A stretch of 64,000 nt of DNA from Gammaproteobacteria bacterium (GTDB taxonomy: Bacteria; Gemmatimonadota; Gemmatimonadetes; Longimicrobiales; Gaopeijiaceae). The notes under the pieces were generated by a model that was not told the DNA's origin, ran no database searches, and was given only the letters and a program-made list of their open reading frames with translations. A program made the position numbers and the translations under genes. The stretch spans positions 209,067 to 273,066 of the forward strand of contig JAPPMM010000065.1 of assembly GCA_028819075.1 (NCBI GenBank). Reading direction: 5' to 3'. Shown here piece after piece: positions 19,785-61,488 of the stretch (positions are counted from its first letter, which is position 1; every line of letters starts with the position of its first letter).

Positions 19785-20668
19785 GCCCATCCATCCCGGG
19801 CCTCGGGACAACGCTGCAGGAGCGCATCGACGCGCTCCATGCCTGGCCCGCCGGCGAGGCTCTTCCGGAGGCCGCCGAAAAGGTCGTGGGCGAACTGCTG
19901 GGGCGCCTGGAGGGGGGATCGCTGCGCTCCGCCGTGCATGAGGACGATGGCTCCTGGGCGGCGGTGCCCTGGGTGAAGCGGGGGATCCTGGTGGCCTTCC
20001 GCAGCGGGCGCGTCACCCCGGTCGCCGCCCCCGGCGGCAGCGCGGTCGACGCCCGGGCTCCATCCGCCTTCCTGGACAAGCACAACCTGCCCGTGCGCCG
20101 CTTCGCCTCCGGGGAGGGCGTCCGGGTGGTGCCGGGCGGCTCGGCCGTGCGCCGCGGAGCCTACCTCGGTCCCGGGGTGGTGTGCATGCCGCCCATGTAC
20201 GTGAACGTGGGCGCCTGGGTGGGGGCGGGCAGCATGATCGACTCGCACGCGCTGGTGGGCTCGTGCGCCCAGATCGGGGAGCGCGTGCATCTGAGCGCGG
20301 CGGCCCAGATCGGCGGCGTCCTGGAGCCCGTGGGCGCGGCCCCGGTGGTGATCGAGGACGACGTGCTGGTGGGGGGCAATGCCGGCGTCTACGAGGGGAC
20401 GGTGGTGCGGCGCGGGGCGGTGCTGGCCGCGGGAGTCATCCTGACGCGCGGGACCCCGGTCTTCGACCTGGTGCGCGAGGAGGTGTATCGCGCCGGCCCC
20501 TCGCGGCCGCTCGAGATTCCCGAGGACGCCGTGGTCGTCCCCGGGGGGCGCGCGGTCACCGGCAAGTGGGGCCGCGCGCAGGGGCTGTCGCTGTATGCCC
20601 CGGTCATCGTGAAGTACCGGGACGCCGGGACGGATCTGGCGACCACCCTGGAGGACTGGCTGCGGTAG
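19781..20668 (+). CDS. dapD: 2,3,4,5-tetrahydropyridine-2,6-dicarboxylate N-succinyltransferase
   Basis: A 295-residue hexapeptide-repeat acyltransferase of the succinylase lysine pathway. The N-terminal helical domain (about 1-90) is followed by a left-handed beta-helix (about 95-250) with repeats such as GAWVGAGSMIDSHALVGSCA and IGERVHLSAAAQIGGVLEPV; the acidic and glycine residues of the active site are in this helix. DapD uses succinyl-CoA. The ATG overlaps the dapA stop. The TAG stop codon is the first triplet of a dispersed repeat (20666-20713), so the repeat defines the end of this gene. Confidence 0.95.
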   Translation: MSPSIPGLGTTLQERIDALHAWPAGEALPEAAEKVVGELLGRLEGGSLRSAVHEDDGSWAAVPWVKRGILVAFRSGRVTPVAAPGGSAVDARAPSAFLDKHNLPVRRFASGEGVRVVPGGSAVRRGAYLGPGVVCMPPMYVNVGAWVGAGSMIDSHALVGSCAQIGERVHLSAAAQIGGVLEPVGAAPVVIEDDVLVGGNAGVYEGTVVRRGAVLAAGVILTRGTPVFDLVREEVYRAGPSRPLEIPEDAVVVPGGRAVTGKWGRAQGLSLYAPVIVKYRDAGTDLATTLEDWLR

Positions 20669-20713
20669 CAGCCCGCCGACGACACTTCCCGGCATTCGGG
20701 CGGCGCTGCATCC
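20666..20713 (+). repeat. REP-like dispersed repeat, solo unit supplying the dapD stop codon
   Basis: The unit begins TAGCAGCCCG at the dapD stop, continues with CCCGGCATTCGGGCGGCG and ends TGCATCC. It aligns with units at 24660-24708, 57722-57770 and 60051-60226. Similarity to the 60051-60226 element continues for another 40 bp or so beyond the unit (CGCGC-GGA-CGC-TCGCTC-GC pattern), so this is the most extended of the solo copies. Confidence 0.75.
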
Positions 20714-20771
20714 GCGCCGGACCGCGTCGCTCCGCCATGCCGGACTGCCGAATACACTGCCCGTGGTGGTC

Positions 20772-24617: not shown

Positions 24618-24659
24618 CGAGTGGTTCTCGGGGGCGAGGGTGTGTGAGGAGCGGGCGTG

Positions 24660-24708
24660 AATGCATCGCCGCTCGAATGCCGGGGGAAGTTGGTCCAACG
24701 GGCTGCTA
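24660..24708 (-). repeat. REP-like dispersed repeat, solo unit supplying the dnaX stop codon
   Basis: Read on the minus strand this unit starts TAGCAGCCCGTTGGACCAAC at the dnaX stop (24706-24708), continues CCCGGCATTCGAGCGGCG and ends ATGCATTC. It fills most of the gap between dnaX and ybaB, ending about 40 nt before the ybaB start, without a second half or central hairpin. Confidence 0.75.
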
Positions 24709-55426: not shown

Positions 55427-57714
55427 TCGGGCCCGCGAGCGGCGGGAACGGCAGCGGACCGGCCGCGCCGGAGCCGCGTCCCGGAGATCCGGAGATCACG
55501 GCGGAACTCGTCGCCGACCACGGTCTAACGCCCGAGGAATACGACAAGATCGTCGGGCACCTCGGGCGCACCCCCACCTTCACCGAACTCGGCGTCTTCT
55601 CGGCGATGTGGTCGGAGCACTGCGGGTACAAGAACTCAAAGCGCCTGCTCCGGCTCCTGCCCACCGAGGCCCCCTGGGTCATCCAGGGCCCGGGCGAGAA
55701 CGCGGGGGTGATCGACATCGGCGACGGATACGCGCTCGCCTTCAAGATCGAGTCGCACAACCATCCGTCCGCCGTCGAGCCGTACCAGGGCGCGGCCACG
55801 GGAATCGGGGGGATCCTGCGCGACGTTTTCACGATGGGGGCCCGGCCGGTCGCGGTGCTCGACTCGCTGCACTTCGGAGACCTGGACTCGAGCCGCGTGC
55901 GCTACCTCTTCGACGGCGTCGTGCGCGGAGCCGGCGACTACGGCAACTGCGTGGGCATCCCCAACCTCGGCGGCGAGGCCTATTTCGACCGCGGCTACGA
56001 GGGCAATCCCATCATCAACGTGATGTGCCTGGGCATCATGAAGCGGGAACAGCTCATCCGCGGCGAGGCCCACGGGGAAGGCAACACGCTGATGGCGGTG
56101 GGCGCGCGCACCGGGCGCGACGGCATCCACGGGGCCACCTTCGCCAGCGAGGAGCTGGGCGAGGACTCCGACGCCAGCCGGCCCCAGGTGCAGGTGGGCG
56201 ACCCCTTCACCGAGAAGCTCCTGCTCGAGGCAAGCCTGGAGCTGATCCGGAGCGGCCACATCGTGGGCATCCAGGACATGGGCGCGGCCGGCATCACCTC
56301 CAGCGCCGCGGAGATGGCCGGCCGTTCCGGCAGCGGGGTCGTGATCGACACCGCGCTGGTGCCGGTGCGCGAGCCGGGGATGACGCCGTACGAGATCCTG
56401 CTCTCGGAGAGCCAGGAGCGCATGATGGTGGTCGTGCACAGGGGCCGGGAAGAGGAGGTCCGGCAGATCCTGGCCAAGTGGGAGCTGGAGGCGGCGGAGG
56501 TCGGCCAGGTCACCTCCGATGGACGCTTCCGCATCCTGGAGGACGGCCGCCCGGTCGCCGACATTCCCGCCCTGCCCCTCACCGAGGGGTGCCCGACCTA
56601 CGAGCGCGAGGGCATCGAGGGCGAAGAGGTGCGCGAGCTGAGGGAGATGGACCTGGCGCCCTATGCGGGCGGCGAGGGCGACCGCACCGCCGACTTCCTC
56701 CGCCTGCTGGCCTCTCCCAACCTGGCCTCCCGCCGCTGGATCCACGACCAGTACGACACCACCGTGCGCACGGCGAGCGTGATCCAGCCGGGAGGGGACG
56801 CGGGCGTCCTGCGCGTGCGCGGCACCCGGCGCGGCATCGCGGTCACCACCGACTGCAGCGGCCGCTACACCTACCTGGAGCCCGGCACCGGAGCCCGCAT
56901 CGCCGTGGCTGAGGCCGCGCGCAACCTGGCGTGCGCGGGGGCGTTGCCCATGGCGGTGACCAACAACCTCAACTTCGGCAACCCGCTCAAGCCGCACATC
57001 TACCATCAGCTGCGGGAGGCCGTGCTGGGCATGGTCGAGGCGTGCGCGCTCTTCGAGACCCCGGTCACCGGCGGCAACGTCTCGCTCTACAACGAGACCA
57101 GCGGCACGCCCATCTACCCCACGCCCGTCATCGGCATGGTCGGCATCATCGAGGACCTGGAGCGGGTGACGCGACACGCGTTCCGGGACGAGGGCGACGT
57201 CATCGTGCTGCTCGGGCGCAACACCGACGAGCTGGGCGCCTCCGAGTACCTGTACGCGATGCACGGCATCGTGGGCGGCAAGCCCCCGCGGGTGGACCTG
57301 CTGGCGGAACGCGTGCTCCAGCAGGCGCTGCTGGCCATGATCGGCGAGGGGCTGCTGCGCTCGGCGCACGATTGTTCGGAGGGCGGCCTGGTGTGCGCGC
57401 TCGCCGAGAGCGCGCTGCACGAGGGCGAAGACCCGGTCGGCATCCGCGTGCGACTGGCGGACCCGCTGCCCTCGACTGCACTATTCTTTGGAGAGGCGCA
57501 GGGGCGCGTGGTGGTTTCGTGCGATCCCGCGAGCCTCGGTCGGGTGCGGCGGCTGGCCGATCGGTACGGCGTGCCCTGCACGAAGATCGGCACGGTAGGA
57601 GCGATCGGCGCAAGTTTCGTCGTGGAGAGCGCGGACGCGCGCATCGAGGCGGACATCAGGGAGGTGGGTGCGGTGTACTTCGGGGCTCTGCCGGAGCGCA
57701 TGGACGCGCAGTAG
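55423..57714 (+). CDS. purL: Phosphoribosylformylglycinamidine synthase subunit PurL
   Basis: A 763-residue small-type PurL. Signatures include [19 protein letters not shown] near residue 64, [35 protein letters not shown] and a Gly-rich later domain ([20 protein letters not shown]). The catalytic histidines are in place. It lacks the glutaminase part, provided by PurQ, and needs PurS. The stop at 57712-57714 is followed 8 nt later by a REP-like unit. Confidence 0.97.
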
Positions 57715-57721
57715 CAAGGGA

Positions 57722-57770
57722 TAGTATTCCGTGGACGAACCACGCCCGGCATGCGAGCGGCGATGCATCC
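57722..57770 (+). repeat. REP-like dispersed repeat, solo unit between purL and purF
   Basis: The unit starts TAGTATTCCGTGGACGAACC, continues CCCGGCATGCGAGCGGCG and ends ATGCATCC. It fills most of the 84-bp gap between purL and purF, ending just before the purF ribosome site (GGAGG at 57787-57791). Unlike the copies at dapD and dnaX it is not at the stop codon but 8 nt beyond it. Confidence 0.7.
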
Positions 57771-57798
57771 ACGAACTGCGGGCGCCCGGAGGCGGCAC

Positions 57799-60050: not shown

Positions 60051-60226
60051 TAGCGGTCCGTGGATGAATCCGCGCGAGCACCGAGAGCGGCGAGGCGCCG
60101 CGCTGGCAAGGCGCTTTGAAGGCCGAATAGCAGGGCTATTGGGCCGAAGAGCAACGCAGAGCGAAGCGATCCAGCGCGGATGCATCGCCGCTCGAATGCC
60201 GGGCGGAGTTCGTCCACGGGCTGCTA
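60051..60226. repeat. BIME-like element: two inverted REP-like units around a central hairpin
   Basis: A 176-bp element bounded by TAG (60051) and CTA (60224-60226). The left unit reads TAGCGGTCCGTGGATGAATC onward; the right unit (60178-60226) is the same unit in reverse, TAGCAGCCCGTGGACGAACT read on the minus strand. Additional inverted similarity (GAGCGGCGA then CCGCGCTGG on both sides) continues inward to a hairpin with arms GGCCGAATAGC (60121-60131) and GCTATTGGGCC (60135-60145). The right end supplies the TAG stop of the Vgb-like gene. The remaining gap back to 59982 shows no gene. Confidence 0.75.
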
Positions 60227-61258
60227 AAAGCTGACCGGCCTCGAAGGCGGCAGCACCGCCCGGCCGATGGTGTTCGTGTCGGCCCCGAACCAGACCACGT
60301 TGGTGTCGGCGTCGTAGTACATGTGGCGGATGGTCCCGCCCCCACTCTCGACCGCCACCGAGCTGATGTACTCCTCTGTGCGCGTGTCGAAGCCCACGAA
60401 CATGTTGGGCTGGACGCCGGTCTCGACGAACCAGACCCGGTCGTCGTTGTCGATGGCCACGCCGTAGGGGCGCGCATCGCCACCGCTCGGGTTGGCCCAC
60501 TCGGTGACCTCGCCGGTGGCCGGGTCGACCCGGCCCAGGAAGCCGCGCGCATAGTCCACGTACCACGCGATGTCGTTGGAGTCGATCACCATCCGCCGGG
60601 GGCGCGCGCCCTCCGGAAGCTCGTAGTAGGTGGGTTCGAAGCTCTCGGGGTCGACCATGACCAGCATGTTGGTACCGAAGAGGGTCGCCCAGGGCCGGTC
60701 GCGGGAGTCCATCTTGAGGCCGTAGGGCCGGGTCGACCCGCCGCGCGCGCCGGGATTGTTCGGCATCTCGACCAGCCGCACTTCCCCGCTCTCCTTCCAG
60801 AACTTGCCCACGAAGTTGCCGCCCTGGACGGTGAACCAGAGGTCGCCGGCGGCGTCGAAGGCGAAGGTGTGCGGGTCGCGGGCGCGCTCGTCGGGCATGG
60901 CGAAGATCTCGATGTCGCCCGTCCCGGGGTCGAGGCGGCCGAGGTTGCCCACCAGGTTGCCGGTATACCAGACCATGCCGTCGTCGGCCACCACCACGGT
61001 GTGCGGGCCGGCGCCGTCGGGCAGGTCGAACTTCTCCATCTCGCCGGTCTCGGGGTCGAGGACCGCGGCGTAGTGGGACCGCTGGCCGGCGAACCAGACG
61101 CGGCCGTCGGGGGCCACGTACGGATCACGGGGCCGGCTCTGCTCCCACGGCACCACCCACTCCTCCAGGGTCGGGTCGTTCTCTTGAGCAAACCCGCTGA
61201 CAGGGGCCGCCAGCAACATCAGGGACACCGCTACCATCGCACTGCAAAGGGATTTCAT
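60224..61258 (-). CDS. Secreted Vgb-like (virginiamycin B lyase family) beta-propeller protein
   Basis: A 344-residue secreted protein. The signal peptide (SLCSAMVAVSLMLLAAPVSG ending FAQ) is followed by seven-bladed-propeller repeats of the streptogramin-lyase type: DPYVAPDGRVWFAGQRS, PHTVVVADDGMVWYTGNLVG, PHTFAFDAAGDLWFTVQGG, RPYGVAIDNDDRVWFVETG, each ending in a GxxWxT/V-like turn. The family name reflects one characterised antibiotic-inactivating enzyme; most members have other, unknown roles, and none of the lyase catalytic residues can be confirmed by eye. The ATG at 61258 has GGGAGG 8 nt upstream. The stop TAG is part of the repeat element. Confidence 0.85.
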   Translation of the reverse strand: MKSLCSAMVAVSLMLLAAPVSGFAQENDPTLEEWVVPWEQSRPRDPYVAPDGRVWFAGQRSHYAAVLDPETGEMEKFDLPDGAGPHTVVVADDGMVWYTGNLVGNLGRLDPGTGDIEIFAMPDERARDPHTFAFDAAGDLWFTVQGGNFVGKFWKESGEVRLVEMPNNPGARGGSTRPYGLKMDSRDRPWATLFGTNMLVMVDPESFEPTYYELPEGARPRRMVIDSNDIAWYVDYARGFLGRVDPATGEVTEWANPSGGDARPYGVAIDNDDRVWFVETGVQPNMFVGFDTRTEEYISSVAVESGGGTIRHMYYDADTNVVWFGADTNTIGRAVLPPSRPVSF

Positions 61259-61488
61259 GACTCGGCCCTCCCGCCGGGTTTCGGAGATGTTCTGCACACG
61301 TTGAGATGCTTCGGACTACAGCTTTAATCGAAGGTTCGGGTGGGGACGGGGCAAGGAGGTGGGGCGTGTGCGTTTCCCATCCATTCCGCACTCGTGCCGT
61401 GCTCGTGCCACACGTCACTTCGCCCACGCAAACGCCCCGCCTCGCCCACGTCCTTCGCTTTGCAAGGACACATGGCGTTCATCCGGCG

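Follow-up and report, generated by a model that had tools for sequence, protein, structure and literature searches.

Why does a short inverted repeat end exactly where a gene ends? The window, i.e., the whole stretch of 64,000 nucleotides that was analysed, raises this question at positions 60051-60226. A preliminary description read this segment as an element of the REP/BIME type, made of two inverted units around a central hairpin, with one unit found alone at three other loci. The features so described are all real; the REP/BIME reading of them is mostly not supported. In our view, the element is very probably a young non-autonomous MITE, a 172-bp quasi-palindrome that would be moved by a transposase acting in trans and directed to the TA in CTAG, and whose solo units would be products of decay.

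The Element and Its Fold

The outer termini are indeed TAG (at 60051) and CTA (ending at 60226), and the central hairpin is present, with 11-bp arms (60121-60131 and 60135-60145) that carry one mismatch. The boundaries of the element are best set at 60053-60224, the flanking dinucleotides belonging to the target or the junction (Table 1). The notion of a single repeated unit stands in part: the two arms are inverted and related, but they are distinct sequences (L, TAGCRGTCCGTGGATGAATCCGCGCGAGCACCGAGAG; R, TAGCAGCCCGTGGACGAACTCCGCCCGGCATTCGAG). The element is short and non-coding, and its ends, of what we call the window type (GCAGTCCGTGGATGAA), pair over about 20 bp. Folded as RNA, the whole 176 nt form one strong hairpin (-118.7 kcal/mol, z = -10.2). 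The TAG motif occurs four times in the window at no more than three mismatches, against 0.04 expected, and a second motif is found at 20688, 24667, 57745, and 60186; the three lone units are single R-type arms, one of which (57722..57773) stands after the TAG stop, at 57712-57714, of an ORF that we take to be PurL-like.

The unit had been said to belong to no familiar family, and Rfam covariance models gave no match to the element near any gathering threshold; searches of plasmid and phage sequences gave no match either. We found no description of it in the literature consulted, mostly outside subscription journals, and members may have been described earlier. A core model, which included the window sequence, matched the window element at E = 1.3e-21.

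Table 1. Coordinates of the element, its parts, and the solo arms in the window
Feature	Position	Strand	Evidence or remark
Solo R-type arm, starts at the upstream gene's TAG stop	20666..20735	+	C65:229732-229801; L012 in the stop-codon test
Solo R-type arm, starts at the upstream gene's TAG stop	24655..24708	-	C65:233721-233774; L013 in the stop-codon test
Solo R-type arm between presumed PurL-like and PurF-like ORFs (our reading of the translations)	57722..57773	+	Motif and BLAST matches
Left flanking TA of the CTAG target	60051..60052	.	Empty CCTAGAAGC, filled CCTA-G...C-TAAAAGC
Probable full-length palindromic MITE, 172 bp, L arm first (G...C)	60053..60224	+	Eight empty sister species; one-hairpin fold
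Left terminal arm, window-type end GCGGTCCGTGGATGAATCCGCGCG	60053..60078	+	41% identity to other-phylum ends; pairs with right end
Left conserved core GCACCGAGAGCGGCGAGGCGCCGCGCTGGCAAGGCGC	60079..60117	+	Mean 91% identity to Actinomycetota / Geobacter / Deltaproteobacteria elements
Central hairpin GGCCGAATAGC-AGG-GCTATTGGGCC	60121..60145	+	Sequence and folds
Right conserved core, end = GGATGCATCGCCGCTCGAATGC	60146..60198	+	Mean 79% identity to other-phylum elements
Right terminal arm, inward GCAGCCCGTGGACGAACTCC	60199..60224	-	Pairs with left end; in 16/18 end pairs both sides vary between lineages
Stop codon (TAG) of the Vgb-like gene, retained at the junction	60224..60226	-	Minus-strand ORF 60224-61297; C-terminus the same in empty sites
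Right flanking TA	60225..60226	.	Next base A here, G in empty sites

A Recent Insertion at a Stop Codon

With the flanks of the element as query, we demonstrated that the left and right flanks abut in eight other species of the genus, where the empty locus reads GGACGCCTAGAAGC with an uninterrupted CTAG; wherever its sequence was read out, this empty site is GGACGCCTAGAAGCTGACC. The element is present at this locus in another genome of its own species. Its absence from the locus in eight sister species marks it as recently inserted at a CTAG. For eleven full copies, we then predicted the empty site, searched the genus for it, and aligned the junctions. Most of these copies also have empty orthologous sites, i.e., the insertion polymorphism characteristic of MITEs.

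The right terminus coincides, as had been noticed, with the stop of the Vgb-like gene. This gene, on the minus strand, ends in TTC TAG where the site is empty and in TTT TAG in the window; the change is synonymous, and as the junction again supplies a TAG, the Vgb-like protein stays the same. We demonstrated in this way an insertion that preserves the stop codon: it lies in the CTAG of the Vgb-like stop and TAG is retained, hence the exact abutment of the element on coding sequence. As to mechanism, a transposase provided in trans would have inserted the 172-bp element at the TA inside the CTAG that ended the Vgb-like gene (TTC TAG), and TAG would have been recreated at the junction.

The 282-kb contig holds only 44 CTAGs, when 825 are expected from base composition (a depletion of about 19-fold) and 207 from a Markov model; 18 of them are stop codons, 14 are intergenic, and 12 lie inside genes. 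In the same contig (G000:C65), TAG is the stop in 50 of 238 predicted genes despite the depletion of CTAG. An enrichment of the repeats at gene ends had been anticipated and was found: by approximate figures, obtained with a home-made codon-usage gene caller and 20 hand-picked TAG ends of our genome, 11/20 of these ends coincide exactly with the stop codon of the adjacent gene, versus 50/255 (20%) of non-genic TAGs (p = 0.0005). Compared with CTAGs outside gene interiors, 18/32 of which are stops, the same approximate 11/20 is indistinguishable (p = 1.0). The position at stop codons thus follows from the targeting of CTAG, which is depleted and which, outside gene interiors, is so often a stop. 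Repeats that abut stop codons exactly are in this manner explained by a transposon that targets CTAG, rare in genes and common at stops, and such a transposon can enter operons at almost no cost. The target in the window, a TA within CTAG, is also that of IS630-type elements, IS630 preferring the TA in CTAG according to Tenzen and Ohtsubo (1991), as cited in PMC2170065.

A Core Conserved Across Phyla and Its Changing Ends

Related elements of about 160-175 bp were found in 70/297 Gemmatimonadota genomes and in 27/297 genomes of the phylum that contains a Geobacter MAG, this MAG itself carrying a member (L142). Two Actinomycetota MAGs, KR13_N2.mb.8 and KR13_S3.mb.41, hold a related element in high number. 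A conserved core is common to elements of Gemmatimonadota, Actinomycetota, and Geobacter/"Deltaproteobacteria". When 14 lineages are aligned, the window element agrees with other-phylum elements at 91% in the left core versus 41% in the left end, and cross-phylum identity amounts to 86.5% in the left core versus 49% in the left end. Pairing is conserved as well: 93.7% of the cells of this alignment are paired and 35 pairs have changed on both sides (compensatory changes), the structure being derived from the same alignment. Pairing as high was reached in 0/500 shuffles, which overstate significance as related lineages are not independent, and every slid control, free of this fault, was far lower. 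As RNA, the strand with the L arm first forms a more stable fold than its complement in 14/14 lineages, by a mean of 15 kcal/mol, and the core is therefore strand-asymmetric; common ancestry may explain part of this unanimity. A G-U pair is conserved in 13/14 of the aligned lineages.

MITE families are normally defined by their ends. Here, several phyla share the core and the ends vary together, and the alignment suggests that the core may have been retained while its ends were exchanged to suit one transposase or another. Such a cross-phylum core with co-changing ends is unusual for MITEs, and the question becomes what the core does. We advance, as a tentative possibility, that these elements could form a class of mobile DNA whose conserved and functional part is a strand-specific hairpin core, with ends exchanged according to the transposase, a spread through several phyla under different enzymes, and non-identical flanking dinucleotides.

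The ends also bear on the mobilizing enzyme. IS630 terminal repeats, as we read them from loci, agree with the ends of ten sister lineages at 14-18/20 positions (shuffle p <= 0.001), and the window-type ends show no resemblance to the IS630 terminal repeats examined (9/20, p about 0.2). In the complete genome G059, elements with both types of ends have a common core. Given the TA in CTAG and the IS630-type ends on sister lineages with the same core, we infer for the window copy an IS630/Tc1-mariner-like mechanism, i.e., cut-and-paste by a DDE transposase. Our genome holds no intact gene for the IS630 transposase (DDE_3, PF13358), only a sub-threshold remnant; this domain is absent from 7 of the other 9 genomes of the genus and intact in a few relatives. 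A pattern search of our genome for an autonomous element with window-type ends found none. Two candidates were rejected: on contig C17, the genes lying between an inverted pair are ordinary ones, and a 1.6-kb inverted pair in G059, among the matches listed, corresponds to two separate MITE insertions in an operon that we take, from our reading of the translations, to be tuf-rpsJ-rplC. We also observed in our genome, at about 100626-100739 of contig C49 (L331), a decayed IS630-type element with an end, GTGTAGTGCCGCATAAGTCC, close to the MITE ends of other genera.

Flanking Dinucleotides

The flanks of seven insertions with an unambiguous empty site could be read, L003, L257, L046, and L031 being left out for their diverged sites. 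These flanks, left/right, are TA/TA (the window), TA/CA, TA/CA, TA/TG, CA/TA, CA/TA, and GA/TA. The left dinucleotide corresponds to the target of the empty site (four TA, two CA, and one GA) and the right one usually differs: the two are identical in 1/7 insertions and different in 6/7, with a net gain of 172 + 2 bp at most sites. At 3 bp, all seven differ from the target. At 5% divergence, at least six mismatches in seven would arise by chance with a probability of about 5e-6. Differing flanks are not expected from a strict target duplication and count against the MITE reading. The difference could come from mutation at duplicated CTAG sites, or from a junction carrying donor sequence. On the other hand, sister elements in G132, G021, and G267 are flanked as C-TA-[G...C]-TA-G. 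Among the Actinomycetota copies, no faithful duplication of 3, 4, or 5 bp was found beyond a weak signal at 3 bp (equal 3-mer flanks in 12/64 versus 5.9 expected, p = 0.01).

These flanks are what a mobile palindrome moved by a recombinase or as single-stranded DNA would leave, with no true target duplication, the target supplying the left flank and the element the right one; the weak equality of flanks in Actinomycetota, the tandem head-to-tail arrays described below, and the better fold of one strand in all 14 lineages lean the same way. We nevertheless regard this as unlikely, if the most serious of the alternatives, as the exact C-TA...TA-G flanks and the IS630-type ends in sister lineages speak against it, and mutation specific to CTAG could wear away duplicated sites.

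Single Arms as Probable Products of Decay

The element belongs, as the preliminary description had supposed, to a dispersed family with further copies in its own genome (4.4 Mb, 65 contigs). A BLAST-type search gave 26 matches, i.e., three full, one three-quarter, and about 22 partial copies, the partial ones being L-type or R-type arms. A pattern search gave 84 matches versus 34 for the reversed control, largely extragenic.

The relation between full elements and arms was followed at orthologous sites. We demonstrated that one site, L254, exists in three states: full in G006, a single arm of 53 bp in our own genome (G000) and in G002, G007, G008, and G009, and empty in at least three others (G003, G004, and G005). 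A second site (L002) is full in G000 and G008, reduced to a 51-bp remnant in G002 and G007, and empty in G009; a third (L028) is full in G006, reduced to 24 bp in G000, and empty in the others. Counting these two, the remnants seen at sites other than L254 measure 24, 33, and 51 bp. One remnant of 42 bp has kept both termini and lost the centre, and elements of 53-54 bp in G059 likewise have both termini without the centre. At L254, the single arms are best read as the derived form and the full element as ancestral to the remnant. Older copies would decay by deletion into single arms of about 30-75 bp, with paired termini lacking the centre (42-54 bp) and end-only scraps as other products. Long palindromes are unstable, and this instability is a plausible cause of the decay. 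Decay by deletion would thus produce the so-called solo units, and the other solo arms, the three in the window included, are probably remnants of the same origin.

This history bears directly on the REP/BIME or REPIN reading, which supposes two inverted REP units moved by a RAYT (a Y1 HUH transposase), the single REP being the basic unit. An inverted pair with solo units, an extragenic position at gene ends, and a hairpin fold all belong to this picture, and the unfaithful target duplication is what transposition through single-stranded DNA predicts. We nonetheless find it improbable. The single REP as basic unit is not supported at L254, where another species has a full element in place of the arm and others have an empty site, so that the single arm is best read as derived. 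The Y1 transposase domain (PF01797, Y1_Tnp) was found in 0/10 genomes of the genus (our own and nine congeners), with positive controls (5/14), and is also absent from the copy-bearing sister lineages G017, G021, G030, G025, and G018. Moreover, the ends of sister elements are of the IS630 type, and the locus in the window is an empty CTAG in eight sister species. Copies that decay from the full palindrome to the single arm can be mistaken for REP elements. The least probable reading of all is that of a sequence selected at the 3' ends of genes as a transcription terminator or an RNA-stability element, with incidental mobility: the stop-codon position, the very stable RNA hairpin, and the conserved pairing would suit it, but the element is absent at the locus in eight sister species with intact flanks, copies also stand between co-directional genes (e.g., at the presumed tuf stop before rpsJ in G059), arm-only decay should destroy the full hairpin, and the gene-end enrichment equals the CTAG expectation.

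Comparison with Known Systems

The MITEs derived from IS630/Tc1-mariner elements, of which RUP of pneumococcus is an example, resemble the window element in being small and non-coding, in their inverted terminal repeats, in the TA within CTAG, and in their presumed mobilization in trans, and IS630-type ends are found on its sister lineages. They differ in that the window-type ends match no IS630 end examined, the flanking TA is often imperfect, and the cross-phylum conservation of the window family lies in its core rather than in its ends. Another MITE, Chunjie, has reportedly inserted in an operon whose structure stayed undisturbed, going by the title of the paper. Compared by its description, Chunjie of Geobacter uraniireducens is likewise present as full and partial copies in one genome, and differs by its size, 178-235 bp (PMC10969869); the window family is itself present in a Geobacter MAG. 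In QMITE2 of Coxiella burnetii, set apart by description as a different element, truncated copies also come to resemble REPs (PMC10969869). REP/BIME elements and REPINs with their RAYTs share with the window element the inverted pair, the hairpin, and the extragenic position at gene 3' ends; unlike them, the window element has no RAYT found in the genus, clean empty sites, derived single arms, and a CTAG target.

Tandem Copies and Operons

Some copies stand in tandem. In G059, L348 (C1:3737900-3740200) and L378 are head-to-tail arrays of nearly identical copies, five at a 171-bp period and three at a 249-bp period. The Actinomycetota MAG KR13_N2.mb.8 (L134-L213) holds very many related copies, with partial tandem joins (...GGGGCAC-TGAGTCGCGCGCC). 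At L376 (G059:C1:3059400-3062200), a related element of the 247-bp class begins exactly at the TAG stop of the presumed tuf, before rpsJ, and a second tandem pair follows rplC in this ribosomal-protein operon.
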